NCBI GenBank assembly: GCA_037783545.1
Contig: JBBELK010000809.1
Span: forward strand, 62,001-126,000
From: Henricia sp. BOLD:AAB3569
Lineage: Eukaryota; Echinodermata; Asteroidea; Spinulosida; Echinasteridae
Direction of reading: 5' to 3'
DNA: 64,000 nt
Positions 9,001 through 41,493 of the stretch are shown here, one piece after another. The notes under the pieces are model-generated. The model was not told where the DNA came from. It saw only the letters and a program-made list of their open reading frames with translations, and made no database searches. Position 1 is the stretch's first letter; every line of letters begins with the position of its first letter. Both the position numbers and the translations under genes were made by a program.

Positions 9001-9088
9001 TTTTTTTCTTTCTTTTTCCACTCAAAGTTTCCAGAGCTTTTCTTCAAAACGGTTCAAATTACAAACTAAAAATTACAAACTAAAAATG

Positions 9089-10140
9089 ACCAAAATATGC
9101 ATGTTTTAAAATGCTTCCGTCTGGAAAACCACGTGACCCATGATCTTCGTATTTGGCAGGCTTATAGATCAGATCATGGCCTACAATTTTCTTTGTGTGG
9201 GAAGTTTTATCTGACCCTTCCTTCTGGGGTCAATTTGAAGTCAAAGTTCAACGAAAACGAAAATCTCAATGTTTGCACTTATTGAGCAACAATGCCCATC
9301 AAACCAAGCTGAATCTTTAAGAAACTAAGTACAGCCATCGGTCCTATGGCAGACTTTCACCAGCGTGTATAATATTATGATGGCATCAAGCGTGACGTCA
9401 CCGTGACGTCATCAAGTATCAAATTACACCCCCAAACAAACCAAAATATGCATATTTTAAAATGCTTCCGTCTCGAAAATCACGTGACCCAGGAACTTCG
9501 TATTTGGCAGGTTTAGAGATGACATTTTGTGCTACAATTTTCTTTTTTCAAAATTTTCATCTGACCCTTCCTTCTGGGGTCAATTGGAGGTCAAAGTTCA
9601 ACGAAAACGAAAATCTCAGTTTTTACACTTACCAGCAACAATGCCCATCAAACCAAGCTGAATCGTTAGTAAATTAGATACAGACATATGCCCTCTGACA
9701 GACTTTCACCAGCATGTATAATAGTATCATGATGGCATCAAGCGTGACGTCACCGTGACGTCATCAAGTATCAAATTACACCCCCAAACAAACCAAAATA
9801 TGCATATTTTAAAATGCTTCCGTCTCGAAAATCACGTGACCCAGGAACTTCGTATTTGGCAGGTTTATAGATGACATTTTGTGCTACAATTTTCTTTTTT
9901 CAAAATTTTCATCTGACCCTTCCTTCTGGGGTCAATTGGAGGTCAAAGTTCAACGAAAACGAAAATCTCAGTTTTTACACTTACCAGCAACAATGCCCAT
10001 CAAACCAAGCTGAATCGTTAGTAAATTAGATACAGACATATGCCCTCTGACAGACTTTCACCAGCATGTATAATATTATCATGATGGCATCAAGTGTGAC
10101 GTAATCATGACGTCATCAGGTGTCAAATTACAAAAATTCA
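9089..10140. repeat. ~351-bp tandem repeat, three copies
   Basis: Copies begin at about 9089, 9440 and 9792 (ACCAAAATATGCAT). Each contains TTTTAAAATGCTTCCGTCT, CACGTGACCCA, GGGGTCAATT and a paired TGACGTCACCGTGACGTCA block near its end. Copies 2 and 3 are almost identical and copy 1 is more diverged. Confidence 0.95.
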
Positions 10141-12410: not shown

Positions 12411-12414
12411 ATAT

Positions 12415-13327
12415 TGTAGTGAACTGGGTTTTCATAAAGAAATACTCATCTGTTGTTTTGGCACGGCCGACAGCAAAAGTTAGTTGAATGATTCTACCAA
12501 CCAAGAGAGGGCGCACTTCCACTTTAACGGTGGCGCGCGCTAACACATAACTTTAGACTGGTGTTATTTTATTTAGGAAAAAGTTATGATTAAGCCTTAT
12601 CAACATGGAGCAATGAGTTTGTCATTTTTAAATAATCATTGGAAATGTTTTAATGTAATATTTGCTATCCTGTCATCGTTTTAGGTGAGATTAACCATTT
12701 TATTAGGGCAAGGCGGATTGAGAACAGTTGGGTTAATGACCGGAACTATATTCCGTAGCGTTCTCTCTGGACGTAGCCGCCAAAGTTGTTGGTTGTGTCT
12801 CGACAACCATGGCATAATTGTCGCTATTTTCGGGATGTGAGACGGCTTGGGACTCCACTCTCTCACCTAAAATGATGATCAAAGATTAGAGAACAGATCA
12901 GTTGGTGAGTAGATTTGTATTTTAGTTCGTACTTTGGGTAAATTAGGCAAAACAACTGAGAGACAACACTCGAGGTTAAATGTCATTGACATCCGGGTTT
13001 GTGTGTATTTTAATGTATCGTATCACGTGGGTGTATTCCACGAGTGTCGTTTAAGCACACGACAGGGTATTATTTAATGTGCATGAGGCCACATACATGT
13101 AAATTTGATTAGTGAAGTACAGTGTACATACATTATTTTGTTGCTTATTTAGGAATTGGATTGACCAGTAAAGCTTTAAATTAATGGTTAAATGTTATTT
13201 CTAAATATTGGTTTTTCTTCAGGTTTTCTTCTGGATGAGAAAATAAATGGAATAGTCCTGATTTGTCGTGCAACCCAACCAAGGTGTCATGCCTCTTGTC
13301 TTCGGACTCTAAAACCATAACACTACA
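12415..13327 (+). repeat. 5' LTR of element 1
   Basis: 913 bp, starting TGTAGTGAACTGGG and ending CATAACACTACA. Relative to the 3' LTR it lacks a 19-bp segment (TGATAAGGCATAAGTTCTG) after CTTTAGACTG and one base near GGGTTAA. The outer 6 bp form a perfect TGTAGT/ACTACA inverted terminus. Confidence 0.95.
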
Positions 13328-13330
13328 AAT

Positions 13331-13347
13331 TGGTAACACGGATGGGG
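13331..13347 (+). promoter_or_regulatory. Putative tRNA primer-binding site, element 1
   Basis: TGGTAACACGGATGGGG begins three bases after the 5' LTR. The leading TGG complements a tRNA CCA end, but I cannot assign a tRNA. Confidence 0.5.
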
Positions 13348-13852: not shown

Positions 13853-15498
13853 ATGGCCACGCCCGAGGCTGACCTAGTGACCCGCTTAGTAGCAGGGCTT
13901 ACTGATGCACTCCGAAAAGATAAGCCAAAATCTGTTGTTCAGAGGCCTTTAAAGTTAAGTAAGTTTTACGGGAGGCCTAGTAAACCTGGAGACCCGACCA
14001 TTATTGAATAGCTTGAAGATGCAGAAGTTTATTTGCAACAGTGCAATATCCCAAAGGCGGATAAGGCTAAAGTGCTTGTTCACCACCTAGCAGGTGTAGC
14101 CCGTGATGAGGTAAAATGCCACAAAGAAAATGTGACGGGTAATTGTGAGGCATTGAAAAAACTTCTTCGGCACCAGTTTGGTGCTGAGGAGTCGGTACAG
14201 TCACTTCAAAAGGCCCTTTTTGAAAGACATCAGAAAGATGACGAATCCCTTATGGATTTTTCGCGCTCACTCATGCGAATGCATGATCGATTTTAGAAGT
14301 TGCCACAGAAGCAGAAAAAAATAACTTAAATGGGTTGCGCGATAGGATGCTAATTGGGCAGTTTGTGGCAGGGGCGAGAAACCAGGGTGTTCGGCTTGAG
14401 CTAAGGCGGTTAGAGTTGGCTAATCAGGGTCAAAGTTTTGCTAACATGAGGGACGCGGCTCGCGAGTTATTCAGGGATCTTGAGGGAAATTCCCGGGGAA
14501 CTCGACGTGGTGCAAGTGTGCACCAATTAGTAACTGAAAATGTTTCCGACAGTGATGAGTCAGTTACGGATAACAGCATAAATGTTAACCAAGTAGTTAA
14601 CCGGTCTCCAGAGGAGACACAGTGGCAAAAAATGTTGCAGCAGCAACAAAAAATTCTTGAATGTGTGCGAAGCCAACAAGAAACTCTATGTAAACAACAG
14701 GAACAAATTACTACGCTTATGCAGGCAGTAGTAAGGGAACGTGGGGTTCTGGGACAACAAAGTATGCATGAAAGTGCAGGAAGGCAGCAGTATGCGGGCA
14801 AGCCGCCTGTGCGCTGCTTTTATTGCAAACGACCTGGTCACATGAAGCATGAATGTAGACTTCGTATTGCGCACGAGAAAGCGAATGGTAGTGCCCCAGA
14901 AGGGCAAGGGCAGGCTAAAGCGGGGCACGCACAACAAAAGGACGGGAAACCAGTAATCTCTGCCACTGTAGGCCAAGTGGCAGAGGAACAATCTGGAAAG
15001 GCCTCACGTGTTGAAGGGGTAACAGAGAAGTATTTTAATGATGTATTAACCAGTTTAGTAAAGGAGAGCCCCAAGGCTCAAATTACTTTAGCTGGGGTAT
15101 CAGTAACATGCGTCCTCGATCACCTGGCAGGGAAGCTAAGTGAAGTGCAGCCTTTAGGTACTTACCTGCGTGTGTATGGGGCAGGGAATAGTGAGGTACC
15201 AATTGAGGGGTACATACGTGCTCCATTGGTAGTACATAACCAGACTGTAGATGCACATTTTCTTGTAGTCAAAGAGTTTCCCAGAAGTGAAGCCAGTAAT
15301 CGCAAAGGTTTTCCAGTTTTGTTAGGGTGCAATGTCCTTCATAAGCTTAAGGGAGTGGTAGTTGATTCAAAGCAACCAGACGCAGATGCGTGGGCCACAG
15401 CCATCCAGTGGTATAGTCTGACTAAAAACCCAGTAGATGAGGAGTCACAAAAGGCAAGTAAGGTTGTACGGGAGAAATACCATACATCTACTGCCTAG
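13853..15498 (+). pseudogene. Element 1 gag and fused protease remnant (stop, frameshift, protease active-site deletion)
   Basis: Gag packages the element RNA and protease would cut the polyprotein. The frame starts with ATG at 13853 (MATPEADLVTRL). It is interrupted by TAG at 14009-14011, where element 2 has Trp (REWLDDLE), so a single G-to-A change is likely. The frame continues to 14296. One base is missing from a T-run near 14291-14294, and gag continues in the next frame from about 14298. A glutamine-rich segment and the zinc knuckle CFYCKRPGHMKHEC (about 14814-14855) follow. The frame then runs directly into the protease. After VTCVLD (15103-15120) the next residues are HLAGKL, so the DTG loop and about 15 residues present in element 2 are missing in frame. 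The protease cannot be active. The frame ends at 15496-15498. Confidence 0.88.
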
Positions 15499-16189
15499 AG
15501 AAGTGCGTAGTGTAACGTGTTATGTCCCAGTTCATGTAAGTGTTCTCGATGGACAGACAGTTCTGGTTGAGAGTCTTTCTAGCTTCGCAGCTAGTGGTTG
15601 TCATTCCCCCATGCAAGTGCAGGCCAGTAACTTAGATGGTAATTGTCGCATTAATGATTCATGTACCGTTGTTAGTGGCAGGACCGTAAGTGTGTTGGTT
15701 GCAAATATGGGAATGCAGACAATAGAACTGTGTCCACATACAAAGTTAGCGTATGTAACTGAGGTGTCTTGTAAGACAGACATTGATCTTGAGACGGCAG
15801 ATGACTGCCTCCACGTTTCAGTGAACCAGATCCTCGCAGAGTCTGTTGGCCATGCCCAGCTAGATTCTTATGTAGAGTCCACTGAGCCAGACATTGAAAT
15901 GGGGGACACTACCGAGTCACAGACAAGGAAGTTGTATGTGTTTGAGGATGAGTCAGAATATCAGCTTCCCCTTGGAATAAACCTGGATTTGTGTACAGAA
16001 TTATGCAAGAAAGACCAGGAAAAGATCGTAAGACTTATCCAAAAGCATGATGAGGTGTTCTCAAAGAACTCTGTGGACTCTGGGGACTTTGTGATAAGGT
16101 ACCCCACAGAATTGACACAACTGATGAAAGACCAGTTAACCGACCATACATGTCAGACGGATCCCTCCACAGCACCTAGGCGAAGTTAG
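15437..16189 (+). pseudogene. Element 1 protease-RT linker region, displaced by frameshifts
   Basis: This frame carries the region between protease and RT (LLPREVRSVTCYVP, LYVFEDESEYQLPLG, QKHDEVFSKNSVD). It aligns with the corresponding minus-strand segment of element 2 (LFVFPDGSTYSLPPG, QKHESAFSMGPFD). It is +1 relative to the protease frame, with the slip near 15465-15480. It is itself left by another +1 slip near 16140-16150, after which the RT frame (from 16149) carries HVRRIPPQHLGEVREL. These are indel lesions, not programmed sites, since element 2 has no frame change at the matching positions. Confidence 0.75.
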
Positions 16190-19109
16190 GGAATTAATTC
16201 AGAAGTTCCTTGATCAAGGTATAGTTAGGAAGAGTAACAGTCCGTATGCGAGCCCTATCGTGTTGGTCCAGAAAAAGGACGGGTCGCTGCGAATATGTGT
16301 GGATTATAGAATGCTTAATGCCAAGACAGTACGAGACTCCTTTCCATTGCCTCGTATTGAGGAATCACTGGAGGCGCTCCGGGGTGCAAAATACTTTTCG
16401 TCGTTAGATTTGGCCCACGGGTATCACCAAGTTGTGATGGACCCAGAATCAGTGAGCAAAACGGCATTCAGAGTTCCTTTTGGGTTGTTCGAATACACCC
16501 GAATGCCATTTGGGCTAGCAAATGCACCCGGAACGTTCCAGAGAGTAATGGAAATGTGTCTCGGGGACATGAACCTGTCTGAGTTACTGATCTACTTAGA
16601 TGATATTCTTATATATTCTGCTACAGTACAGGAACACATTGATAGGCTAGATAAGGTATTGACCACGCTAGCGGATTTTGGACTTAAGATCAAGGGTGAA
16701 AAGTGTCAACTGTTTCGTAGCCAGGTGTTATACTTAGGACATGTGGTGGGGCCGGAAGGTGTGTCGGTGGATGATGATAAAGTCCAGCGCATCAAGGATT
16801 GGCCAGTACCCAAAACAGCTGCAGAGTTGCGCTCGTTTCTTGGCTTGGCGGGTTATTACCGTCGGTTTGTGAACGGGTTTTCAAAAATAGCGGCACCGTT
16901 GCATGCTCTTGTGCCTTCAGTGGCTAAGGGCAATGCAAGATCTAAGCCGCCGCCATTTTGTTGGAGTTCTGATGCGCAACAGGCTTTTGATACTTTAAAG
17001 CATACCCTGACACAAGAACCAGTCCTTGCATACCCGGACTTTGCTAGGCCATTTGTCTTGGAGATAGACGCCTCTTTGCAGGGCTTAGGAGCATGTTTAG
17101 CTCAGGATGACAAAGATGGCAAAAGACATCCAGTTGCATTTGCCAGTCGTGGGCTCCGAGGAGCAGAATCTAGGTACCCTGATCTCAGTTCCTTTAAATT
17201 GGAACTCCTGGCCCTTAAATGGGCTGTAGTAGATAAATTTAGGGACTATCTACTTGGGATGCCATTCACAGTACTAACGGATCATAATCCCTTGTCCCAT
17301 CTCAAGACGGCAAAATTAGGTGCGTGTGAAATGCGCTGGATAGCACAACTCGCTGCTTTCACGTTTGATGTGAAATTTAGAACAGGGGCTAGTAATCGCT
17401 GTGCTGATGCACTGAGTCGGTACCCAGGTCACTCTCCAGCAGAGAAAGTTCAGGATGTATTGCAGTGCAGGGTTCACTCAACAGTGGTCCCATTGCGGGG
17501 TGTTAGTGTTTGCGCGGTGTCAGCGGCTCAAGAGCCAGGGGCTAGATCTCCGGAGGTAAACAGCCAAACAGGAATTTTCCCATCTTGGACACCAGAACAG
17601 TTGTCCGCCCTGCAAAGGGCTGACCCAGTATTAAAGTGTATCTGGGAACGTTTGGAGAAGGGCTGGAAACCAGGTCAAGCTTTTAAGACCGTGCATAAGG
17701 AGCCAGCAGAACTCAAATTGTGGCTGTGGCAGTGGCCAAGGTTCCTCGTAAAGGATGGTGTTTTGCATCGCCGAGTTAGGGACCCGTTACATGGTGATCT
17801 AGATCAGATACTAATGCCCAAGAGCTTACAACAAAGGATGTTAGAGGGTTGTCACAATTCCTGGGGACATCAGGGGGTTTTAAAGACTTGTTCCCTACTG
17901 AGGAGACGTGTGTTTTGGCCCAAGATGGCAGCGGCAGTGCGTCGCCATATCAGTCATTGTGAACAGTGTGTCATTGCTAAGGCATCCGAGCCTCAGGCAA
18001 GAGCGCCCATGCGCCACCTCTTGGCTTTTCGTCCACCAGAAGTGTTAGCCATAGATTTTGTGAAAGTGGATAGGGGGTCTGGGGGCTACGAGGACGTCCT
18101 CGTTATGACCGATGTTTACACAAAATTTGTCCAGGCTTTTCCATGTAGGAATCAACTTGCAGTAACTGTAGCCAAGGTGTTAAGGGATCAGTGGTTCTCG
18201 AAGTTCGGTATACCATGCAGGTTACACAGTGACCAAGGTAGAAATTTCGAAGGAGATGTCGTGCGAGAGTTGTGTGCCCTGTACGGCATGAAAAAGACAA
18301 GAACAACTCCATATCACCCTGAGGGTAACGCTCAGGCAGAGCGTTTTAATCGCACGATGTTCGGTCTAATTAAGTCTATGGATGAGAGAGACAGGCGGAG
18401 GTGGCCTGATCTTTTACAGCACCTTGTGTTTGTGTATAACGCTACCCCGCATTGTACGACGGGAGTAGCTCCCTACGTGCTTATGTTCGGAAGAGAACCT
18501 TCGATCACTCTTGACCAAATGTTAGGAAGGGTAAATAATGATTGGGACCAAGATTTTGTCAGAGAACAGTCTTTCCTTCTCTCTAGAGCTAGTGATTTAG
18601 TGGCAGACAGAGTAGCAAAAACCTGCAACCGCAATAAGGCTTCTCATGATAGTAAAGTAAGACCCAGTAAGCCTATCCAGGTTAGTTCCCATGTTCTACT
18701 CCGGAAACGCGCGTTCAAGGGACGCCACAAACTTTCTGATGCCTTTGAAAGAGACCCCTATGTTGTCGTTTGGGCAAATGAACACAATGATGTATTTCGC
18801 ATCCGTCCATTAAAGGGAGGTACAGAGAAAGTTGTGAACCGGAAACACCTGCGATTAGACCCTTTAGCAGCAAGTGGCTCAGAAAATGAGAGTGAGGGGT
18901 CAGACGAAGATTCTGATTGGGAATTAATGTGTACTGGGCATTCACAAGGTCAGCCTCTGGATCAAAATGCACAGAGGGTAAGCAGTGAAGAAGTAGGGGA
19001 GCCCCCTACAATCATGGGCTCAACGCCACTGTACACAAGAAGGTCTCAAAGAGTTACAAAAGGCCGACACAGCAATCCATTTAGATTGCCGCGTTCGGCT
19101 GTGAAGTGA
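16149..19109 (+). CDS. Element 1 pol: reverse transcriptase - RNase H - integrase
   Basis: The frame is open from 16149 to the stop at 19107-19109, nearly 990 codons. RT motifs: LRICVDYRMLN, FSSLDLAHGYHQV, MPFGLANAPGTFQRVM and the catalytic LIYLDDILIYS. RNase H: EIDASLQGLG (Asp), LELLALKWA (Glu), LTDHNPLSHL (Asp), NRCADALSR (Asp). Integrase: zinc finger HNSWGHQG...HCEQC, then catalytic D (LAIDFVKVD), D (HSDQGRNF), E (AQAERFNR). A C-terminal domain with VSSHVLLRKRAFKGRHKLS and VNRKHLRLDPL follows, with no chromodomain. The tail is acidic (SENESEGSDEDSDWE), then RRSQRVTKGRHSNPF. It must be made by frame change from gag. All catalytic residues I can check are kept, so this is the best-preserved part of the element with ORF3. 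Confidence 0.95.
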   Translation, partial: HVRRIPPQHLGEVRELIQKFLDQGIVRKSNSPYASPIVLVQKKDGSLRICVDYRMLNAKTVRDSFPLPRIEESLEALRGAKYFSSLDLAHGYHQVVMDPESVSKTAFRVPFGLFEYTRMPFGLANAPGTFQRVMEMCLGDMNLSELLIYLDDILIYSATVQEHIDRLDKVLTTLADFGLKIKGEKCQLFRSQVLYLGHVVGPEGVSVDDDKVQRIKDWPVPKTAAELRSFLGLAGYYRRFVNGFSKIAAPLHALVPSVAKGNARSKPPPFCWSSDAQQAFDTLKHTLTQEPVLAYPDFARPFVLEIDASLQGLGACLAQDDKDGKRHPVAFASRGLRGAESRYPDLSSFKLELLALKWAVVDKFRDYLLGMPFTVLTDHNPLSHLKTAKLGACEMRWIAQLAAFTFDVKFRTGASNRCADALSRYPGHSPAEKVQDVLQCRVHSTVVPLRGVSVCAVSAAQEPGARSPEVNSQTGIFPSWTPEQLSALQRADPVLKCIWERLEKGWKPGQAFKTVHKEPAELKLWLWQWPRFLVKDGVLHRRVRDPLHGDLDQILMPKSLQQRMLEGCHNSWGHQGVLKTCSLLRRRVFWPKMAAAVRRHISHCEQCVIAKASEPQARAPMRHLLAFRPPEVLAIDFVKVDRGSGGYEDVLVMTDVYTKFVQAFPCRNQLAVTVAKVLRDQWFSKFGIPCRLHSDQGRNFEGDVVRELCALYGMKKTRTTPYHPEGNAQAERFNRTMFGLIKSMDERDRRRWPDLLQHLVFVYNATPHCTTGVAPYVLMFGREPSITLDQMLGRVNNDWDQDFVREQSFLLSRASDLVADRVAKTCNRNKASHDSKVRPSKPIQVSSHVLLRKRAFKGRHKLSDAFERDPYVVVWANEHNDVFRIRPLKGGTEKVVNRKHLRLDPLAASGSENESEGSDEDSDWELMCTGHSQGQPLDQNAQRVSSEEVGEPPTIMGSTPLYTRRSQRVTKGRHSNPFRLPRSAVK

Positions 19110-19334
19110 TTTGTTTTTTTCCTGGTAGTGGAATTGTCTAGTGGATTGCCGATGGTCAGGAAGCTGCCTTGTTGGAAAGACTTGGGGTATCCAGTTTCCA
19201 CAATGGCACACCTGATCGGAGCGCACCACTAAACACTCCTGCTGCCAGTAAACTGACCTTTATTCGGTCGTTGCGAGTAGAAAATACGGGCTTGTTTGTG
19301 ATTTGTATACTGGTGGGAGAGTGGTTTTTCACAG

Positions 19335-19378: not shown

Positions 19379-19960
19379 ATGAGTTTTGTCCTTTTTGGAC
19401 ACAGTTTTGTTAAGCGCTTGCAGAAGAAGCGAGGTTTTCATTTCCAAATTGAGTTACAGCGTCGCGTAGTACCTGTAACATGTGTTGGTGAGGGTGGTCT
19501 TACTCTCGGTAGAATCCAGACGAGGCCTAGAAAATACTTTCAGTCCTTAGAACAAGCCAACCCGTCGGTTTTGATCTTGGATTTAGGTACTAACGACTTA
19601 TGTTCTAAAGATATGGATTCTGCCCAAGTGTACTCTTTGGTATGCAATTTTGTACATGAGTTACCTAAGAGGGGAATTAATCCAGACGTTGTAGTCTTTC
19701 TGTCTGTTATGCCTCGAACAGGAGGGTTAGGAGGTGACCAGGTGTCACTCGAAGAATTTAACAGTCGGGTGGAACAATTCAATAATTGTATCCGACAAGC
19801 GACCTTTGTGGAAGATCGATGGTGGTTATGGAAGCACCGGGGACTACGGAGTTCCCGTTATAACCTTGACGGGGTTCACCTGAATGCAGCCGGAATGTGG
19901 CAGTACGAAAGAACACTGCGACAAGTTGTTAAGTTCTTTGAGGGGCGCATTTGGGCATAA
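19379..19960 (+). CDS. Element 1 ORF3: SGNH/GDSL-hydrolase-like protein in env position
   Basis: This is a 193-aa protein between integrase and the 3' LTR. It has the four SGNH signature blocks in order: block I GHSF (candidate nucleophile Ser9), block II glycines in VGEGGLTLG (37-44), block III LGTND (Asn72), block V DGVHL (Asp164, His167). Length, block spacing and the alternating hydrophobic strands (SVLILDLGTND, DVVVFLSVMP) fit a flavodoxin-like SGNH fold. Family members are esterases or lipases acting on acyl or acetyl groups. The substrate here is unknown. No signal peptide or membrane span is seen, so it would act inside the cell or particle. The frame is open upstream to 19169, but the ATG at 19379 gives a start and length matching the homologous ORF of element 2. 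It starts 270 nt after the pol stop and ends 230 nt before the LTR. Confidence 0.86.
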   Translation: MSFVLFGHSFVKRLQKKRGFHFQIELQRRVVPVTCVGEGGLTLGRIQTRPRKYFQSLEQANPSVLILDLGTNDLCSKDMDSAQVYSLVCNFVHELPKRGINPDVVVFLSVMPRTGGLGGDQVSLEEFNSRVEQFNNCIRQATFVEDRWWLWKHRGLRSSRYNLDGVHLNAAGMWQYERTLRQVVKFFEGRIWA

Positions 19961-20178
19961 GTGCATTTTGTCTGTTGTCAGACCACATTTTGAACGGTGT
20001 TGTAGGTTATGTATAACTGTTTACTTTTTTATATACTTGTATAAACAAAAGGGTTGCTCGAAATATAATCACAGAACCATGCAGTCTAAAGTGCATAATA
20101 AAGCGTACATGTAAGTAAAATCTGTATAATATGCAGAGGCAAAATCATTCAATCGATCCCCAGGAGTTGATCGAGCCA

Positions 20179-20189
20179 GTAGGGGAGAT
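20179..20189 (+). promoter_or_regulatory. Polypurine tract, element 1
   Basis: AGTAGGGGAGA directly abuts the 3' LTR start at 20190 and would prime plus-strand synthesis. Confidence 0.75.
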
Positions 20190-21122
20190 TGTAGTGAACT
20201 GGGTTTTCATAAAGAAATACTCATCTGTTGTTTTGGCACGGCCGACAGCAAAAGTTAGTTGAATGATTCTACCAACCAAGAGAGGGCGCACTTCCACTTT
20301 AACGGTGGCGCGCGCTAACACATAACTTTAGACTGTGATAAGGCATAAGTTCTGGTGTTATTTTATTTAGGAAAAAGTTATGATTAAGCCTTATCAACAT
20401 GGAGCAATGAGTTTGTCATTTTTAAATAATCATTGGAAATGTTTTAATGTAATATTTGCTATCCTGTCATCGTTTTGGGTGAGATTAACCATTTTATTAG
20501 GGCAAGGCGGATTGAGAACAGTTGGGTTAAGTGACCGGAACTATATTCCGTAGCGTTCTCTCTGGACGTAGCCGCCAAAGTTGTTGGTTGTGTCTCGACA
20601 ACCATGGCATAATTGTCGCTATTTTCGGGATGTGAGACGGCTTGGGACTCCACTCTCTCACCTAAAATGATGATCAAAGATTAGAGAACAGATCAGTTGG
20701 TGAGTAGATTTGTATTTTAGTTCGTACTTTGGGTAAATTAGGCAAAACAACTGAGAGACAACACTCGAGGTTAAATGTCATTGACATCCGGGTTTGTGTG
20801 TATTTTAATGTATCGTATCACGTGGGTGTATTCCACGAGTGTCGTTTAAGCACACGACAGGGTATTATTTAATGTGCATGAGGCCACATACATGTAAATT
20901 TGATTAGTGAAGTACAGTGTACATAAATAATTTTGTTGCTTATTTAGGAATTGGATTGACCAGTAAAGCTTTAAATTAATGGTTAAATGTTATTTCTAAA
21001 TATTGGTTTTTTTTCAGGTTTTCTTCTGGATGAGAAAATAAATGGAATAGTCCTGATTTGTCGTGCAACCCAACCAAGGTGTCATGCCTCTTGTCTTCGG
21101 ACTCTAAAACCATAACACTACA
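20190..21122 (+). repeat. 3' LTR of element 1
   Basis: 933 bp, TGTAGT...ACTACA, followed by the ATAT duplication (21123-21126). It keeps the 19-bp segment missing from the 5' copy. Confidence 0.95.
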
Positions 21123-21267
21123 ATATGAAAACAAAGTATATTGTATGCAAAAATCACAGCGCAGATATTTTCCCAAGTGCAGAACAACATGCACTTTAAC
21201 TGCGCGCGCGTTATCAGCTTTGGACACATGGGCGAGGTATTTTAGATCATGAAGGAAGGTAGCTTTG

Positions 21268-22191: not shown

Positions 22192-22458
22192 ATAGGCTTG
22201 CCAAATGATTACTGCTATCACTGCAAGACACCAGGACACTGGGCTCGTGAATGTCCCCTCTACAGAACACAGCCTCAGGGCATCAGAAGCAGGTTCAGAG
22301 CACGAGCGTATCCACCCAACTCCACATACTCCAACTTCTACTCAAGCGTGCCATGGAACATCCCTCCCGTCCACCAGTCATATCCATCCACCCCATCAAC
22401 TGGGCCTACCTCAGACCTCACAGCAAAACCAAGTATCAACCCAGCATCGGCAATCTGA
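22192..22458 (+). pseudogene. DIRS gag C-terminal fragment with zinc knuckle
   Basis: The frame reads LPNDYCYHCKTPGHWARECP, a CCHC knuckle, then a Pro/Ser/Tyr-rich tail ending at 22458. The sequence upstream (CCTATATAGGC) has no recognisable remainder of gag. The gag 5' part is missing, decayed, or joined by splicing. It overlaps the start of the RT frame. Confidence 0.65.
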
Positions 22459-23731
22459 ATCGTCGCTAACTAGAATACAGCAGATTCAAGACAAATTTGT
22501 TGACGTGTTGCAGGTAACTTACAGTTGTCATCGTGATAATATCTGCGATCTTTCTTCAGATCAAGTGCGAGTCAAAGGACGAATTAAAGAACATAGACAG
22601 TTCTGGGCAGATATCGGTGCTTCTAATTTCATACTCTCAATAATAGATCAAGGTTACACAATCCCTTTTCAAGAAATCCCTTCGAAAATGTGGCATAATA
22701 ATAACAACAGATCAGCCTTACTAGAGTATGAGTTTGTAACCAAATCAACCTTAGAATTGTTACACTCCGGAAGAATCGCCGAAAAAGTTGAACCTTCACA
22801 TATCGTGAGCCCGTTGTCTGTGTCATATCAAACGTCAAGTAAAAGAAGACTTATTCTAGATCTAAGTAGAATAAATCCATATGTGGAGAAAACCCACTTT
22901 GAGATTGATGATTGGAAAGTAGGCCTGCAATTAATGTCACAGAATGCACACTTGTCTAGCTTCGACTTGAAGTCGGGATATCATCATATTGACATTGCCA
23001 AAGAGTCTCAATCTTACATTGGGTTTTCTTGGAAGATGAACGGTACCTCTAGATATTTTGAGTTTAATGTCCTTCCGTTTGGCCTTTCTAGTGCTCCGTT
23101 GATTTTCACTAAAATGTTGAAACCACTTGTAACACACTGGAGAGCTAATGGTATTCTAATCGCCCTTTATCTTGACGATGGATTTTGGGTTGTTCCAAAC
23201 ACTTCCAGCGATAATTCTACAAATCTAAAACATGCCCAGAACGTATCTCGTCACATTAAATCCGATTTAATCAAAGCTGGCTTAGTGTATAATATACAAA
23301 AAAGCAAATGGGAACCCACCACTACTTGCGAGTGGTTAGGCATGATTTGGGATACCCGAGCTGGCACATTTAAAGTGTTAGACAGGCGTTTAGAAAAGAT
23401 CAACAAAACTATCTCCGAGTTAACCCAACGTCTTCCCGTACGCAAATTACATTCTTTCGTCGGTCAAATTATTTCCCTAAGACCAGTTGTAGGAAACATC
23501 TGTAGACTTATGACACGACACTGCCAAATATCCATTGCGCATGCTGATCATGAGGACGAAATTATTACACTAGATCAGTTTTGTAATTCAGAAATAAGAT
23601 TTTGGAACCTTCATGTATCAAAACTAAACGTACGCCATTTATTCCGGACATCCAGTGTTAACAAAATAATGTGTTGTGACGCAAGCTCTACAGGAGCTGG
23701 GGTCGATTTCACTAAACCCTTCGTAAATTAA
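22205..23731 (+). pseudogene. DIRS reverse transcriptase plus start of RNase H
   Basis: The open frame carries the DIRS RT: SGRIAEKVEPSHIVSPLSV, KRRLILDLSRINPYV, SSFDLKSGYHHIDI, FEFNVLPFGLSSAPLIFTK, the catalytic ALYLDDGFWV, and the post-RT block LHSFVGQIISLRPVVG. RNase H begins with MCCDASSTGAGV (first catalytic Asp) and is cut off. After about 23705 the sequence is unrelated and a stop follows at 23729-23731. The first ~75 codons overlap the zinc-knuckle frame and are probably not used. The RT itself has no internal lesion. Confidence 0.85.
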
Positions 23732-23889
23732 GGTCCATAATAAGTTTACGATGAATCGTACGGCTGCGATGGATCGTGGCTACTAGTCTACAGCACTAAG
23801 GGACCCCATATGCATTTTCGGGTACAATCTTGGCAAATTTGAGGATATGTTAATTTCATATCAAGGAATTCAAATCCGGTTGTTGCCAA

Positions 23890-25240
23890 TTTTTAAGAGG
23901 TCATCTTCAAGGTCAAAGGTCAATTTAAAGGTCATAAAGGGTCAAAACCATAAAATTGCACTTTGGCGGCCCCTCGTTGGTCAATTTCAACAATCGTTGC
24001 ACCCATTCTAGGATTCACAGGATGCTAAGTTCATTTATTATAGTCTCCAAGATTTTTAAGGTCATCTTCAAGGTCAAAAGTCAATTTAAAGGTCACAGAG
24101 GGTCAAAAATCACAAAATTGCACTTTGACGGCCCTTTCCCTGGTCAATTTCAACAGTCGTGGTGTCCATTCTAGGATTTACAGGATGCTGAGTTCATTTA
24201 TTAAAGTCTTCAAGATTTTTGTGGTCATCTTCAAGGTCAAAAGTCAATTTAAAGGTCAATTTAAAGGCCACAACTAGGGTAAACAATCTTAAAATTGCAC
24301 TTTGGCGGCCCGATTGTTGAAATTGGTCAATTTCAACAATCGTGGCGCCCATTCTACGATTTACAGGATGCCGAGTTCATTTATTATAGTCTCCAAGATT
24401 TTAAGGTCATCTTCAAGCTCAAAAGTAAATTTAAAGGTCACAGAGGGTCAACAATCACAAAATTGCACTTTGACGGCCCTTTCCCTGGTCAATTTCAACA
24501 GTCGTGGTGTCCATTCTAGGATTTACAGGATGCTGAGTTCATTTATTAAAGTCTTCAAGATTTTTGTGGTCATCTTCAAGGTCAAAAGTCAATTTAAAGG
24601 TCAATTTAAAGGCCACAACTAGGGTAAACAATCTTAAAATTGCACTTTAATTGGCGGCCCCTGATCGATCGTTGGCCAATTTCAACAATCGTGGCGCCCA
24701 TTCTACGATTTACAGGATGCCGAGTTCATTTATTATAGTCTCCAAGATTTTAAGGTCATCTTCAAGGTCAAAAGTCAATTTAAAGGTCACACTGCAGAGG
24801 GTAAACAATCACAAAATTGCACTTTGGCGGCCCCTCCTTGGTCAATTTCAACAATCGTGGCGCCCATTCTAGGTTTTACAGGATGCTGAGTTTATTTATT
24901 AAAGTCTCCAAGATTTGTATGGTCATCTTCAAGGTCAAAAGTCAATTTAAAGGTAAATTTAAAGGTCACAACTAGGGTCAAAAATCTTAAAATTGCACTT
25001 TGGCGGCCCCTCGTTGGTCAATTTTAAGAATCGTGGTGTCCGTTGTAGGATTTACAGGAGGCTGAGTTTATTTATTAAAGTCTCCAAGATTTTTAAGGAC
25101 ATCCTCAAGGTCAAAGGTTAATTTAAAGGTTACAGGGGGTCACTAATCATAACAAAATGTACTTTGTCGGTCCCCGTTTGGTCAATTTCAACAATCATGT
25201 TGTCTGTCCTACGATTTACAGGATGCTACGTTCATTTAAC
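23890..25240. repeat. 160-185 bp tandem repeat, eight copies, GGTCA-rich
   Basis: The marker TCATCTTCAAGGTCAAA recurs at about 23899, 24060, 24221, 24404, 24567, 24752, 24920 and, diverged, 25098. Each unit also carries AAAATTGCACTTTGGCGGCC, CAATTTCAACAATCGTGG and ATTTACAGGATGC. Open frames here are repeat artefacts. Confidence 0.95.
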
Positions 25241-25839
25241 TAGGGCCAGGGTCAAGGCCACTTTACTAGGACCCCTGGCTCCCCATGGAGTGATGGAAAT
25301 TGTATGTATGAATTTCAGTCTCGGTTGATCCATTTAGATGTTAAGAACGTTTTTTGCAAGGTGTACATGTATGGTGATGTAGAGTTAATTTATGAAGATT
25401 CCAGGACGTTTATATGTCAGGGTCATGTGACTAAGGTCAGTGGTCAAGGTCAATTTGGACATCGGACTTACCTGTTGTGATTTCTTTCTCGGATTTTGAA
25501 AATGCCAAGTGAATATCTAAAGACAAGTCAGGGTCCTGTGAATAAGGTCAAGGTTATCTTAGATCGTACTGGGCTCCATTAGCAGAATGTTTGATGGGAG
25601 GGGAGAGGTTCTTTCAAGGTTTTCAGGATGCCAAGTTGATTAATTTTTGAAAGTCTTAAGATGAATACACCACTGCATGGTGCCTATTCTTCATATTAAA
25701 CTATGCCGGCTAACGCATATAAGGACAACTGTCTAGCAGAACTTGCAATGAGTTTTTCAATTAACTCGTAATGAAGATATTTAAAATTAAAGCCCGCCAA
25801 AGTGAGCGACTGAGTAGGCCTACATCAAGATCCTGGAGA

Positions 25840-26115
25840 AAAACATCAAGCAGTCCGCAGAGAAGCTCTGGGAGCATTTTGACATCAGCAGGACAACGAT
25901 CCAAAACACACTGCCAAGTCAGTCACGAAATGATGGTTCCGGGATAATGCTGCAGGCGTAGAGTGGCCAGGCCAAAGTCCGGACCTCAACTCAATCGACT
26001 CTGGGGGAGAGCCTTCCAACCTCAAAGACCTCGGGACTTTAGCGGAGTGGGCCAAATTCCACGCAGATACGTTGTGAGCCAGTACCAGAAGACATTTTCC
26101 ATTGACTGTCAAAAT
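25840..26115 (+). pseudogene. Tc1/mariner-type transposase relic (DDE region)
   Basis: Plus-strand segments in one frame read QDNDPKHTAKSV (second catalytic Asp block), a stop, then WFRDN, and WPGQSPDLNSID (third catalytic block, where the usual Glu of PIE is Asp), then LAEWAKF. Order and spacing fit the C-terminal half of a Tc1-like transposase. The N-terminal half is absent or unrecognisable, and the fragment has at least one stop and a small indel near 26000. Confidence 0.7.
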
Positions 26116-26508
26116 GACTTTGAACTGATCTAAGGAGGCTAGACATATTTTCTGCAAATCTGTCAATAAAATACCCCCGAAATGATTTACATGTATTTCT
26201 TGAAATGTCTGTTTGCAGTGATTCTTTCAGCTGCCTGTCACACTCTTGTAACTTAAGCCAAAAGACTCCCATTCCTAAAAATTTTCACGATTCAAAATAT
26301 GGTAAGGGTATCAATAATTTCAGGCTTGTTAGAGTTGTTTTTTTGTAATAAATTAGTGTTTTATAGACGAATTTTATGAAAACAAAACTAACAAAACTTA
26401 ATCTCTGGGAGGGGTGGTTATTTCTCTGTAGGGCTTGCTAAGCTCACGTAATAGCCAATCCCAATCAGTGAGGAACAACTGCACTACCGTGATTCGAGAC
26501 CACCAGTT

Positions 26509-26581
26509 GGCTTCATAGCTCAAATGGTAGGGCGTCTGCACGTTAAGCAGAAGGAATGCGGTTCGAATCCCGGTTGAGCCA
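26509..26581 (+). tRNA. tRNA-like sequence, anticodon GTT (Asn by anticodon), probably pseudogene or SINE head
   Basis: 73 nt folding into acceptor GGCTTCA/TTGAGCC, D-stem GCTC/GGGC and anticodon stem TCTGC/GCAGA, with loop ACGTTAA placing GTT at 26542-26544. The A box (TAGCTCAAATGG) and B box (GGTTCGAATCC) are good pol III promoters. The T-stem TGCGG/CCCGG has two mismatches and the acceptor has one, so a functional tRNA is doubtful. It lies inside the composite insertion. Confidence 0.5.
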
Positions 26582-29040
26582 AGTTGCTTTTCACTGCATC
26601 ATTTCCCAAACTCATATGGATTTGTCCACATTTGTATCGAATTCATTCACCCCGGCGGTCCCTGGGTAATAATCCCTATAAAAATAATCACTTAATCATA
26701 CTAAAACAGCATATGCTCCCCTAATACTAATAGAGACTGGAGTCGCTTGTGCATGATTTGTGTACCAGCAAAATTCAGAACGGTATTTTGTTCGGGCTTA
26801 GGCCTGTTTTTTATTTTGCCATAATATCATCTACTAGTCCAAATATTTAGAAAAGAAAGTGATAAGTGCAGTCGACGTTACTCAAACTATGTGAACTTTA
26901 ATAATCTGAAAATATGGTCCTTTTCAATGTGCGATGACATATACGAAATTTTGACCGGATTAGAAAACTAAACAACACTGGGTTTTAAAGGCAGAACAGA
27001 TGATTGGTAAACTGTTAAAAGGGGGTTAGGCCTATTTCCACTAGAAGCCCATTGATACAACTGTCCTGGACAAATTTTGTAACTGTAACGATTGAAAAAA
27101 AACCCATTATGAACCAGAAACGAACGTAAAAACCAAAGTGCTATAAAAATGAATGACAAAAGACGAAATCGCTTTTTCAATACAATGCCGATAACCACAC
27201 GAAACGAATTTTTTTCATTTTTTCATAATGGTTTATTACACATACTGACAATATCAAATAGCAGCTCAAAAGCTGAATTACATGATAAATATACATAGTG
27301 AAAAAAAAAAAAAAAAAAAAACACCTAATAATAATTTTAAAAAGAATTTACAAATTTTAGGGAAATATAAGTCGGACGTCGTCACATAGCCCTTCTGCAC
27401 GAAACCTAGATGAGGCAACTTGGGAGAATTATAATTTTGTTCCTCGTAAAATCTTCGTATTTGCCCCTCCAATTTGTTTCATTAGATTTAGGCCTACACT
27501 TATTCATGTTTAAAAGATCGTTTGAAGGAAAATTATTGACAGTGTTGAGAGTTCGTTCCGGTTTTTCTTGTAAACTCAGAAAAAAATGGGGTCACTGTAA
27601 ATGATACCCTCATCAGGTACTTATTCGCTTTAATTAAGCGAAGGGTACAACGACAAATTCGCCACGAATGATCAGCGAAATATAAACATATACTGTAGGC
27701 CTATAGCTACATTAAGACAGCTCGACTTGTACAACTTGTCCAAAACATCTCGTCCCTCCAGACAACTTTATTCCCATGTATGAAAACCACCCACCTCCCC
27801 CAAAGTAACCCCAGCTTTATCCTGTTTCCGTATAGACCGTATCGAATAGCCGCCATTTCGTGAGACACCTTTTGTTACTTAAACCGTTTAACAATGCATG
27901 GAAGCGCGATATGTGCAAAGCGCAACCATGCATGTCCTCAAGGAACAAACTGAAGAAACTGCCCCACGAAATGGACAGTCGATGGTTGTCGCAATGTTGT
28001 TAAGTGGGGGAAACATTGAGCATAAAACGATATCAAAATCCGATTATTGCAAACGTTCTTTCACATAAAATGACTCAACTCGATGTCAAACTCTAGGGCC
28101 TACATTATACAAGCATAAACAAACCTGATATACTAGTCACACTGACAACTTCGCATATGGCGATACGGCACGGCCAAAATTAACACGTATTTTGTGACTG
28201 CATAAACTGTTAGTAGAAGCTAGCCTTGTCTGTAGTGTGCGATACCATCACCTGATCACTTTGCGAATTGAACCCAAATTCGAACGCAGTGTGTACAGTT
28301 ATTAATACAGAAGGGTTCCTAGTTGGGCATCTTCGTGATTGGGTAATATTTTTCGTGCGCTAAATTCCACGTCGCGTCGTCTGCATTTTTATTTCCAAAA
28401 AACCTTGAAAAAGCACCTTTTCGGGGTCAGCAAAATTAGCAAGTGCTGGTGAAAAGTTACCAAGTTTTACTCGTCATCTTTGTGCTATTAATCTAGTGCC
28501 TTTTTGTTCTACTTTGTACTTGTGCGCTGGAAAGAACTACATCATGTTGTAGATACTGTCAACGAACTTGTTGCAAGTGTTTTTGTGTATTTTATTCTTC
28601 CGTTGGGAAAGTCACCCACGGAATTTGAACAGCAGAATTGGACTGCCACGATCGCATGTACATGTATCGTGTATGTACACCCAGTTCGGCGCCGGCCGTG
28701 CTAGCACAACCGTGTACATGTAACGGTAACGCGAACTAAGCATTCCTGTGAATTGACGAACCGGACCCAAGCAGCGTCCCCGTAGGATCGAATAGATAAA
28801 GCATCTTCTTCATTGGTGAGTTGCCTTTACTTCAAATCAGTACTTGATTACTGCTGAACTTAATATCATCAACTATAAGACATAAAATCCTACAGCCTCA
28901 TCGTAGCTTACGGTGCGTTGCCATGGCAGATATGCATCGTTAAACACATCGCAAGTTTCTTGAAATTGTTCTTAAGACGAAACACGAGTTACGGAGCATT
29001 AACCCATCGCATCTCGAGTTACGAAGAATCGTAAACGTTA
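26582..29040. other. Rest of the insertion, no gene recognised
   Basis: AT-rich DNA with a poly(A) run of about 20 bases at 27300-27321, possibly the tail of a retroposed sequence. Open frames here show no known motif. Confidence 0.5.
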
Positions 29041-29045
29041 GTGAA

Positions 29046-29430
29046 ATCGACCACAGGTTCCATAATTTGTAACGATGTACACGTAGCCCATAAACACTGG
29101 ACTGAAACAGAATCCCTCCACTTGGCGTGAACTAAGTACAATTTCATTTGCCATAAAATCATTCCTGCCTTTCATATCCAACTCCAAAGTAAAATGTTTT
29201 ACAGATAGTCAATCAGCGGCTCATATTGTCGAAGTCGGCAGCATGAACAATGAATTACATAAACTTTCTTTGGATATTTTTACTATTTGTATTCAGAATA
29301 ACATCAGAATAGAGGTTCAATGGATTCCCAAAACTGCTAATGAACAAGCGGATTTCATCAGTAGGTTGGTCGACTTAGATGACTGCAGTGGTCAATCTCA
29401 GACCAGTTCTTTTCATTGGTAATTAATACA
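29046..29430 (+). pseudogene. DIRS RNase H, C-terminal part
   Basis: Fragments read HKHWTETES, then in the next frame STWRELSTISFAIKSFLPF, KCFTDSQSAAHIVEVGSM (catalytic Asp) and WIPKTANEQADFISRLVDLDD (last catalytic Asp). This completes the domain begun at 23690. At least one 1-bp frame slip lies near 29115. The stretch following it (VDCFAT, GVDAFSQNW) is the linker to the recombinase. Confidence 0.75.
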
Positions 29431-30873
29431 TGGGGTCCTTTGACGGTGGATTGCTTCGCGACATATTATAATTCAAAATTACCTCGCTTTTTTTCAAGAT
29501 TTTGAAATCCCGGAACTGCAGGCGTTGATGCATTCTCTCAAAATTGGATCAAAGAAAACTGTCTTTTAGTTCCTCCAGTAACTCTTATCCCCAGTGTTCT
29601 TCATCATATTTTCATTTGTAAAGCAAAAGGAGTCCTAATCTTCCCATGGTGGCCCTCTTCACCATTTTGGCCGTTACTATGGTCAAGTTACAAGTCGGGG
29701 GTCAAAGCTTACATTTCTGTTTCCGGGCCTGAAAACATAAAGTCTGGACGAAACAAGAATTCCCGGTTAGGTTCTCACTTATTCAAAAGCAATATAGGCG
29801 CCGCTTATATCAATTTCACTAATGAACCGTCAGTACGTTTAATGAATTGATTTACCAATTTCTTTTTCCTCCTTTTCTTAATAGATCATCTTAAGTCATA
29901 ACTTTTGGTCGGAATTTCCACATTAAATTCAAGCTTTCAAGACACGCACCTTTCACGACATGTTGACGGCCAAAGCAGATGGCACCATCACCGCTTACCT
30001 TTATAAATGAAGAGAATTTTTCTCTTGGCTCCAACAGTTCAAACTTCCAATAAAGATCCCGGTAAGAGAATAAATCATCGCTGCTTTTATAGTTGATAGA
30101 GCGTCTAGGTCCACATCAGACAGTACCATTGTAACCATTGTCTCGGCTATTAAATGGCTTCATTCTCTAGTCAACTGTAGTCCCAACCCGGCTGATTCAT
30201 ATATAGTCCATCATATCGTGGACTCTCATAAACGTCGTCTCCACAAGCCTCCAGCTCAAAAAGATCCCATTTCGATTGAGTTAATCCAAAATATCGCTCA
30301 CAAATTCGCTAGTCCCAATTGTAATTTGATGCAACTCAGAACTGCATGTTATGTTACTCTAAAATTTACTCTTCTTTTTCGACATGACGAAATGGCACAA
30401 ATTAAGGCAAGTCACATACAACAGTTAAACAATGATGCTGGTTTCAGCATATTCATTCCTCGTTCTAAAACGGATGTTTTTAGGGAAGGAAACATTGCTT
30501 ACGTTGCAGACACTAAGGAATTTTATTCTTCAGCTCAGATTTTCACATCGGACAGGATGTTTATATTTTGGTTCCACTGTCTTTTCATTATAAATCCAAC
30601 TCCTACACTCCTCAAGCAAACAGACCCCTAAGTTACTCAAGATGCAGAGAAATTTTCCGAGATGCGTTAAAACAAATTGGAATTTCCGATCCTAATAGAT
30701 TCGGTCTTCACAGTATGCGTTCCGGGGGAGCTTCTCATTTAGCTAATCATGGTGTTCCTGATGAGTTAATTCAGCAACACGGAAGGTGGAAAACCGCAGA
30801 AGCCAAGAATAGGTACATACATAGAAACATCGAACACCGTCTACAAATCTCACAGGTTCTGCAGAACCAATAA
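29431..30873 (+). pseudogene. DIRS tyrosine recombinase
   Basis: The protein would join DNA circles to target sites. After a linker containing WGPFTVDCFAT and FPWWPSSPFWP, the recombinase frame carries LTAKADGTITAYLYK, a TGA (30008-30010), a TAA (30071-30073), then an open stretch with LFRHDEMAQIK (first catalytic Arg). A -1 slip lies near 30555-30568. The last 100 codons then hold GLHSMRSGGASHLANHG (His-x-x-Arg), QQHGRWKTAEAKNRYIH (His/Trp and the Tyr nucleophile). Catalytic residues are present but the frame is broken at least three times. Confidence 0.85.
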
Positions 30874-32065: not shown

Positions 32066-32376
32066 AAGGAAGGAAATTAGTTTAAAAATAGGATTGTAGA
32101 TTCTGAGAAATTTCAGCAACATGGATGCAGTAATACTTCGACAAAGGTTAAAAATCGATGCATGGTTGTTGTGTTGAATACAACTTAAACATCATTTGCA
32201 AATTATTTAAAAAAAAAAACTTTCAGTTGTCAATTCTTCCCACAAAGGTTCCATTTTACACGGGAATAAATCATGTGGTGTTTGTTACCATCCCTATCAA
32301 CACTTCTAGTCGTTTTATTATTGTTAACTCGTAGGTGCATATGGTGTAATTATTTGGCTTTAAAAAAGCGTGTTAA

Positions 32377-33547
32377 TGTTGTGGTGCAGTCCGTGGTGTC
32401 ACAGTTTGACAGGTGGGGTGCATCTCAAAGTTAATTGGGATAGGTGTGTGCATGTGTTGACGTTGCTGCTAATTGTCTCAGACACAAGAACAGGAATGTA
32501 ATGGATGAGGCAATTAAGTCCACAAGTAGATTGCACAACTTCAAAGTCAACAGTAGAATTTATTCAATCAGATGAAAATCACAAATCACAATCAATGTCC
32601 TCGAAGATAATTATTCTGTTCACAATGTTGGAGTTGGACTTGGAGCTTTAAATGTTTTACACTCGGCAAGCTGCAGATGAATCCAATAAATCAGTTACAG
32701 CCCTAATCAGATATCACAGTAGCTAAATAGTGATGTTAATCTCACGAGAAGTAATCCCCAGATGCATGAAGTCCCCGATGTATCTTAGTATCCGTACATA
32801 TATTGCCTACAAAGAAAACAACATGAAAAGGCATAGTCAAAATATTGTGGTTGTGCGCATACAATGTTATGTGGTCAAAGGTCACACAATGTACATGTAC
32901 GTACAGACACAGTATGTCGTACATGTACGTGGTGGAATGTATACACTGTCACTGCGGTGTCTATGACAACCCGACATACGCTACAAACTTTCGAAACGTT
33001 TGAGCGGCAATCGACAAGTTTTTTAACAAATAATGCAACAAAACTCACCACAAGTTTTGGAGTAGGAACCCCCCTCACAGTTACCAAGTGGGTACCATCT
33101 CTAGCATGGCTCACGGCTACCCAAAAGGGGAAGAATTGCCCGTTTTCAGGGCAGGTTGTCGCACAAAACGAGAGGCGATCAGCGTGTCTCCGCTCCAAGA
33201 ACCCACCGCGCATACACTGTCGCGCACACCCACACGGTACACAATATTAATGAGCCTTTCCAAAAAAGTGTCATAAAACTTACTTGTACAGTATCACAAA
33301 ATGGTGCTTACATAAGAAACCTTCAAAATTAGTCATCGCACATTAATTAAATAAATACAAGGTGGATATACCTTAACCCTTGAGAAAATGGAGCTTCTCA
33401 ATAAGGACCTACTTGTTACACGGTGTAAGGAGTTTGACGGTAACTACTTTAGTTATGCATAAAGGTCAAACATAATGAGGCAAGGTCAGGCTAAATATAT
33501 CCTTATCACTATGGGATTTGGAATTAAAGGGGCAGCGTCTCTCCACA
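32377..33547 (-). repeat. 3' LTR of element 2
   Basis: 1171 bp. On the minus strand it begins TGTGGAGAGACGC and ends CACCACAACA. On the plus strand TTAA precedes it. Open frames inside it are not taken as genes. Confidence 0.95.
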
Positions 33548-33841: not shown

Positions 33842-34438
33842 TTATGGAATACACCTGAAAATAATCTCTTTCAACCCTCGACAATATTTGGTTATCCCTT
33901 CTTTGGTCAAATGACAGCCATCATCAGAAATATATTGTGGGTAATTTATTCTCCTCTGTGCATATTGACAAACTTTCGGGTTTCCACGGAGCTCCCTGGC
34001 AAGAATCACATTAAACCGTTTAACCCTGTGGTTAAACGTGGCAACATCTACTTGGTTTTGTCTTGAGATGTTAGTGCGCTGAATGACGGAGAGCAACACA
34101 ATACGTTTAGGGTTAATCCCCCGAACTTGAAGTAATTCAAGAAACTGCAGTGTGCATTGCAATAGGACTGCTGGAGTCTTTTCTAGGCTGCAAATATCAT
34201 TTGTGCCCATATCAACAAGCAACACATCAATTGGTCTCCTCGTCATTTCATGCAGATAATGATCTATATTAGAAAATATTCTTGCATAGCTTAACCCCGG
34301 ATGGCCTTCAGCAAAAATAGTGCAAGAGCCCTCAACCGAAATATACTCGCTAACCGTCTGATGATTTATCCGTGCTTCACGCGCAAGTCGGGCAACGAAA
34401 GAATGACCGAACAAGAAAACATATGGCTTCTCTGCCAT
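33842..34438 (-). CDS. Element 2 ORF3: SGNH/GDSL-hydrolase-like protein in env position
   Basis: This intact 198-aa protein lies between integrase and the 3' LTR. SGNH blocks: FGHSFV (Ser13), glycines in AEGHPGLS (44-50), MGTND (Asn80), DGCHL (Asp173, His176). It also shares RGINP, a long hydrophobic strand ending LLSVIQRT, and FNHRVKRFN with the element 1 protein (RGINP, FLSVMPRT, FNSRVEQFN), so the two are homologous. Block I has His where classic GDSL enzymes have Asp. No signal peptide is visible. The ATG follows the pol stop by 222 nt, the stop is 294 nt from the LTR, and a TTTTTTGGATTAG acceptor-like site lies about 22 nt upstream. Likely activity is esterase; the biological substrate is unknown. 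Confidence 0.86.
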   Translation of the reverse strand: MAEKPYVFLFGHSFVARLAREARINHQTVSEYISVEGSCTIFAEGHPGLSYARIFSNIDHYLHEMTRRPIDVLLVDMGTNDICSLEKTPAVLLQCTLQFLELLQVRGINPKRIVLLSVIQRTNISRQNQVDVATFNHRVKRFNVILARELRGNPKVCQYAQRRINYPQYISDDGCHLTKEGITKYCRGLKEIIFRCIP

Positions 34439-41475: not shown

Positions 41476-41493
41476 CACTGGCAGGCCGGTTAA

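Follow-up and report, generated by a model that had tools for sequence, protein, structure and literature searches.

A predicted SGNH/GDSL hydrolase as the third gene of a Ty3/gypsy retrotransposon lineage in the starfish Henricia

A Ty3/gypsy long terminal repeat (LTR) retrotransposon in the starfish Henricia sp. BOLD:AAB3569, here called element A, carries a third open reading frame (ORF3) downstream of integrase that, judged from its sequence, is an SGNH acyl-ester hydrolase of about 193 amino acids (aa) and a stable third gene of its lineage. The element lies on the plus strand of the window, the 64-kb stretch of contig JBBELK010000809.1 that was analysed, which belongs to a host assembly of 740.7 Mb that was searched for ORF3. 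An earlier note on this DNA had described a 193-aa third ORF after integrase and before the 3′ LTR; its coordinates (19379–19960) and the LTRs were confirmed. A second element of the same lineage, element B, was detected at 45667–32373 on the minus strand by a tblastn search against the window itself, and is 61% identical to element A in reverse transcriptase (RT), 49% in integrase and 32% in ORF3. The identity, position and family-wide conservation of ORF3 are, in our assessment, nearly certain.

The frame of ORF3 in element A is already open from 19142; its ATG stands at 19379, and its stop codon ends at 19960. The GHS, GTND and DGVH blocks singled out in the earlier note are real and belong to FGHSF (Ser9), DLGTND (Asn72) and DGVHL (Asp164 and His167), to which GEGGL (Gly37/Gly40) can be added. 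The proposed SGNH/GDSL assignment also held in a hidden Markov model search, in which Pfam Lipase_GDSL_2 (PF13472) matched the ORF3 protein of element A with 40.2 bits against a cut-off of 32.9 (E 6.4e-10) and matched 24/24 aligned sequences (alignment A1) with E below 1e-3; for element B, the score was 24.3 bits, below the cut-off (E 5e-5). Structure prediction yielded a compact, single-domain model whose fold is SGNH, with PAF acetylhydrolases among the high-scoring folds. Designed pentatricopeptide proteins, which came top in sequence searches of solved structures, were discarded because they gave weak, repeated matches over short stretches.

A first protein search for ORF3 returned 30 relatives, and a profile search returned 153 homologues, of which 120 were listed; the 84 of 175–240 aa were used for motif, tree and charge analyses and form, with the two window proteins, a set of 86 rows. 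The complete catalytic set (Ser9, Gly40, Asn72, Asp164 and His167) is present in 79 of the 86 rows, including both window ORFs, and Asn72 and His167 are kept in every row. Each of the other seven departs at one catalytic position (two with a missing N-terminus, one with a one-residue gap and four with a substitution). In the tree of homologues, the protein of element A falls in a 20-row clade with a support of 100 in the Shimodaira–Hasegawa-like approximate likelihood ratio test, and that of element B is placed elsewhere. No relatives were confirmed in viral contigs scanned with ORF3, integrase and RT or in prokaryote genomes scanned with ORF3 and integrase.

The genome search gave 118 matches with the ORF3 protein of element A and 132 with that of element B, in overlapping lists. 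The best 30 of each were cut out, and the resulting 60 loci include both window copies, a copy split into two pieces (L019 and L027) and probable second-haplotype copies. Integrase lies directly upstream on the same strand at 57 of these loci, and at 53 of the 57 the end of the integrase match is 173–438 nt from ORF3. At two loci (L017 and L059), the adjoining 5–6 kb contain neither an integrase nor an RT of this kind. A third (L040) has a neighbour's integrase on the opposite strand and, on the expected strand, a weak remnant of the integrase C-terminus that is left outside the 57. Approached from the integrase side, 75/92 rows have an ORF3 match at most 2.5 kb downstream on the same strand: 25/30 at an integrase identity of at least 57%, 50/58 at 45–56% and 0/4 at 40%. 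Behind these 92 rows stand 1862 first-look candidates, of which 91 were scored, and a single copy is in places present in several pieces (C928, C1015); the count used most ORF3 coordinates and omitted small second pieces, which can only lower the figure of 75. On the linkage counts from both sides, ORF3 is a standard part of the lineage. That the ORF arose by chance or is a lone captured fragment was rejected, as the same ORF follows integrase in other copies and subfamilies; the earlier note had suggested a search of LTR-retrotransposon libraries, in place of which the host genome served, and neither of the outcomes it had set against its own proposal (no SGNH match or fold; a captured fragment unique to one copy) occurred. 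Contigs C763 and C412 each carry a pair of nearly identical ORF3 copies on a single strand, at distances of 7.7 and 8.1 kb, an arrangement suggestive of tandem elements with shared LTRs.

Co-inheritance was assessed with the 34 distinct loci having both ORF3 and integrase. They fall into 15 subfamilies at 85% ORF3 identity, all of which keep ORF3 in the same place even though identity between subfamilies is 27–60% for ORF3 and 43–68% for integrase. The ORF3 and integrase identity matrices are correlated (Pearson 0.84 for the 15 representatives and 0.94 for the 34 rows; 0/2000 permutations in each case), and the two trees divide the 15 representatives identically, into 6 and 9, the A and B clades. 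Selection was gauged from the ratio of nonsynonymous to synonymous substitution rates (dN/dS) in 51 rows of ORF3, 41 of them distinct, and 46 of integrase, 42 of them distinct, whose pairs are non-independent. The median for ORF3 is 0.55 in close pairs and 0.34 in pairs with dS 1.2–2.5, where the 87 pairs range from 0.15 to 0.75; for integrase, the corresponding medians are 0.31 and 0.30.

ORF3 of element A begins 269 nt past the pol stop, and in 15/15 representatives the gene has its own ATG, 213–420 nt past that stop and in all three relative frames, which places it outside the Pol reading frame. The gap between pol and ORF3 holds 1–11 upstream ATGs per representative. A block at 19167–19201 (plus strand), with the core CTTGGGGTATCCAGTTTCC, is conserved in most of the A clade, being above shuffles in four of the five other A-clade representatives (L010, L014, L016 and L020; not L018) and in 0/9 B-clade representatives.

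Relatives without ORF3 were also found. Three integrase rows (C162, C195 and C2027) are 67–68% identical in integrase, have an open 1405-codon pol frame and show no ORF3 match nearby. Among the ORF3-less rows, one copy of each of three kinds was examined (L064–L069; L064 and L067 are C162). In L064, the gap block (here without a shuffle comparison) and the stretch immediately ahead of the 3′ LTR, which flank ORF3 in element A, are both kept, but the distance between them is shorter by about 630 nt, close to the length of the ORF3 gene. The integrase of L064 groups with those of L014 and L016, two ORF3-bearing A-clade subfamilies (support 83/93), in a tree with weak support at most forks and an unresolved wider A clade. 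Given the retained flanks and this grouping, secondary loss is the most likely explanation for the absence of ORF3 in L064. From the matching trees and this deletion, we infer that ORF3 was probably gained before the two main clades split and then inherited with pol, with at least one loss. The four integrase rows at 40% identity, one of which was looked at closely (L065), have no ORF3 match and may stem from before the gain, on a branch too long for certainty.

Several observations weigh against reading ORF3 as a stable gene with a membrane role. As a relative with an open 1405-codon pol lives without it, ORF3 is not essential. Values of dN/dS for ORF3 spread from 0.15 to 1.70 in the dS bin 0.01–0.10 and reach 4.0 at dS below 0.01; this width among close pairs indicates that recent copies drift, and values above 1 in very close A-family pairs are as expected for copies decaying after insertion. 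Moreover, 672/820 ORF3 pairs are saturated, and the dS bin 0.1–0.3 contains one ORF3 pair (0.52) and three integrase pairs (about 0.75). A splice acceptor before ORF3 beats 95% of shuffles in only 2/15 representatives; that of copy A is good (equalled by 4/200 shuffles), and a general acceptor just ahead of the gene was rejected since only these two reach the level of copy A. Among 453 candidates for longer proteins (about 450–1430 aa) with an ORF3-like part, none was found at E 0.001. Finally, the basic charge of the protein is equally compatible with RNA binding.

The sequence of the protein also bears on where it would act. The catalytic Ser stands at or before residue 16 in 70/82 rows (residue 9 in element A), and hydropathy gives no membrane span in 81/86 rows (best 19-residue mean below 1.6; 0.9 for ORF3 of element A and 1.2 for that of element B). 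Median net charge is +9. Lacking space for a leader as well as a transmembrane segment, and carrying this charge, ORF3 should stay cytosolic and meet negatively charged surfaces, and we infer a soluble intracellular enzyme that would encounter anionic membranes or RNA. The signal peptide and transmembrane anchor of a retroviral-type env were not found, by hydropathy only and with no dedicated signal-peptide predictor. The reading of ORF3 as an env gene was rejected on the missing leader room and membrane span; thus, of the "env position" proposed earlier, the place after integrase stands and the likeness to an env protein does not.

Element A is a Ty3/gypsy LTR retrotransposon (Metaviridae), assigned by its domain order and by its LTR ends and target duplication. 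Protease, recognized by similarity to element B and not by Pfam, is followed by RT, RNase H and integrase between the LTRs, and both window elements have TG...CA ends and a target duplication of the 4–6 bp class (ATAT in element A, TTAA in element B). On the plus strand, the 5′ LTR (TGTAGTG...CACTACA) spans 12415–13327, preceded by ATAT at 12411–12414; the BLAST match ended at 13328, counting one A matched by chance. Just inside it, a primer-binding-site-like stretch that begins with TGG was noted by eye at 13331–13347. The gag and protease region (13853–15498, from an inferred ATG) contains a CCHC knuckle (zf-CCHC E 5e-4, slightly below its Pfam cut-off) and is followed by a protease-to-RT spacer in a separate frame (15437–16189) and by pol (16140–19109), in which Pfam identifies RVT_1 (4e-35), RT_RNaseH (2e-27), Integrase_H2C2 (1e-15) and rve (4e-12). 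This copy is damaged in gag and at the start of pol: a stop at 14009 lies in frame with the ATG at 13853, and the frame changes near 14287, 15437 and 16140. ORF3 is the sole open frame of at least 120 codons from pol to the 3′ LTR, ahead of which a polypurine-tract-like stretch was noted by eye at 20178–20189. The 3′ LTR occupies 20190–21122, with ATAT at 21123–21126. Because the LTRs are only four mismatches and two gaps apart, the insertion looks young.

In element B, all on the minus strand, the 5′ LTR is split into a first part at 45025–45663, with TTAA at 45664–45667, and a second part at 40472–41005. Then follow gag (38805–39920; Retrotrans_gag 3e-6), protease with a weak dUTPase-like stretch (37897–38829; RVP 6e-4, slightly below cut-off), three distinct open frames for RT, RNase H and integrase (34661–37517), a 198-aa ORF3 of the predicted SGNH/GDSL hydrolase type (33842–34438) and a 1171-bp 3′ LTR (32377–33547), with TTAA at 32373–32376. 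The two LTRs differ by one base over 1171 bp; the splitting of pol into several frames despite this near-identity may reflect assembly error or recent damage. The dUTPase-like stretch, between protease and RT at 37930–38337, was seen in element B only and is a weak candidate: PF00692 scored under its cut-off (E 0.005) and no dUTPase among solved structures matched, so a firm assignment was rejected. The 5′ LTR is interrupted by an insertion of about 4 kb at 41006–45024 that is not part of the element; with terminal inverted repeats seen by eye (CCCAGCCAGCAC...GTGCTGGCTGGG), a GT duplication and internal repeats, it resembles a DNA transposon. Contig C684 carries further copies of both window elements, in the same order and orientation as on C809, with closer spacing, and those copies are probably the other haplotype.

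Elsewhere in the window, a tyrosine-recombinase (DIRS/Ngaro-like) retroelement occupies 22196–30873 on the plus strand (RVT_1 E 5e-19, Phage_integrase E 7e-11), with a tandem array of 160–190-bp units at about 23886–25238 between these two domains; the ORF3 protein of element A has no match within this retroelement at E 1e-3. A further array at 9070–10132 repeats a unit of about 352 bp in tandem.

The earlier note knew of no standard description of such a gene in LTR elements; a published precedent exists, as Vesta LTR retrotransposons of bdelloid rotifers carry a GDSL esterase/lipase ORF3 (PMC5408684), a case cited in two reviews (PMC5718144, PMC6431247). Because of this precedent, the arrangement is not wholly new, and the starfish family is an unusual variant. 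As in Vesta, an SGNH/GDSL gene with intact catalytic residues and no transmembrane domain lies downstream of integrase in retrovirus-like LTR elements; the Vesta GDSL ORFs also lack coiled-coil domains, and Vesta1 GDSL has been linked to Athena-I GDSL and a host ORF (PMC5408684). In the bdelloid elements Vesta, Juno and TelKA, a dUTPase lies between protease and RT (PMC5408684), where element B has its weak stretch. Unlike the sequenced Vesta GDSL clones of 1.3 kb, starfish ORF3 measures 0.58 kb and is single-domain, a comparison made by description only. PMC3905857, PMC9210276, PMC12440569, PMC4021074, PMC8556966, PMC9025612, PMC11939994 and PMC4120745 mention no GDSL ORF3 of LTR elements in the portions covered, and the starfish family was not described in the literature searched, which was covered partially. 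The Troyka LTR superfamily was rejected for elements A and B, as its CG...CG ends and 3-bp duplication (PMC12440569) differ from theirs.

SGNH domains are also known from other retroelements. As the earlier note states, an esterase-fold ORF1 occurs in some CR1/L2 long interspersed nuclear elements (LINEs): CR1/L2/RTEX elements, among them ZfL2-1, have an SGNH esterase in ORF1 (PMC3905857). Starfish ORF3 shares with it the fold class, a retroelement location and Ser/Asp/His plus the oxyanion Gly/Asn. However, the LINE esterase precedes pol and sits beside a coiled coil, whereas ORF3 follows integrase and is modelled as a compact single domain. The transposon-specific His of the LINE enzymes lies four residues before Asn (H191 and N195; PMC3905857), and the ORF3 residue matched to it by position is Asp in 81/86 rows. 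On this residue and the position after integrase, membership in the LINE ORF1 esterases was rejected; the ZfL2-1 structure is absent among the 50 fold matches listed for the ORF3 model, though the two may be related. In amphibian Ngaro-like elements, extra SGNH ORFs likewise lie downstream of the integrating enzyme, here a recombinase (PMC9210276), but these are tyrosine-recombinase elements with split direct repeats and not LTR/integrase elements. Among solved structures, the catalytic subunit of PAF acetylhydrolase Ib and the GDSL acylhydrolases of bacteria share 17% and 14% identity with ORF3 over the residues aligned; these are cellular or bacterial enzymes and, unlike ORF3, not mobile.

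By analogy with the ZfL2-1 esterase, ORF3 may serve a membrane step. The protein would dock by its basic surface at the sites of Gag particle assembly or movement on host membranes and would cleave an acyl ester, either in a phospholipid or in an S-acylated protein; cleavage would help particles load onto, leave or cross membranes. The authors of the bdelloid study proposed that a GDSL esterase/lipase might aid penetration of host membranes (PMC5408684), and a later review repeats the idea (PMC6431247); no demonstrated transposition role for SGNH hydrolases is reported in the portions of the literature covered. Taken whole, the chain from stable third gene through cytosolic esterase to a membrane step for Gag particles has about an even chance of being correct.

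ORF3 might instead act as a host countermeasure, deacylating or deacetylating host proteins or lipid messengers and blunting a host response, with an activity like that of a de-palmitoylase or PAF hydrolase and apart from the particle's own membrane steps. The PAF acetylhydrolases among the predicted folds favour this view, the ZfL2-1 authors name palmitoylation reversal and lipid messengers as options (PMC3905857), and the loss in one relative fits an accessory factor. The substrate is purely conjectural, however, and the between-subfamily median dN/dS of 0.34 gives no sign of an arms race, although pairwise values could miss single sites; we consider this role unlikely. It is improbable that ORF3 is a lipid- or RNA-binding scaffold whose enzyme activity is no longer relevant: the basic charge would suit such a scaffold, and liposome binding by the ZfL2-1 esterase survived active-site mutations (PMC3905857), but all five catalytic positions are intact in 79/86 rows. 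An exported protein performing the entry and exit work of env would fit the env position, the sole long frame that copy A has between pol and its 3′ LTR and, in that copy, an open frame upstream of the ATG with a hydrophobic stretch (window mean 1.68). Yet the upstream frame is only 1–4 codons long in 6/15 representatives (L010, L018, L020, L031, L045 and L058), and the protein itself, by hydropathy, has neither a membrane span nor leader room, making this substitution very improbable. A captured host gene useless to the element, for which the possibility of loss might speak, is strongly disfavoured, as 15 such divergent subfamilies keep the gene in place with between-subfamily dN/dS below 1.

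Returning to the membrane step, a broader picture can be drawn tentatively, and we rate it as possible though not probable: in a large, old Ty3/gypsy branch, the standard third gene would encode a lipid-acting enzyme in place of env and would have been acquired once before the two-clade split, separately from the LINE and Vesta esterases. If true, acyl-ester hydrolysis would be a recurrent, convergent answer to the membrane step of intracellular retroelements. The starfish family offers a clean case of an SGNH hydrolase in a retroelement, a single-domain, leaderless gene apart from Gag and Pol that is kept in 15 subfamilies of one genome and lost in at least one relative. It also cautions against assuming that whatever ORF occupies the env position is an env gene. 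Furthermore, the ORF3-less relatives provide a natural comparison, with and without the gene in one genome, for the function of ORF3, which makes the benefit of an esterase to a retroelement testable.
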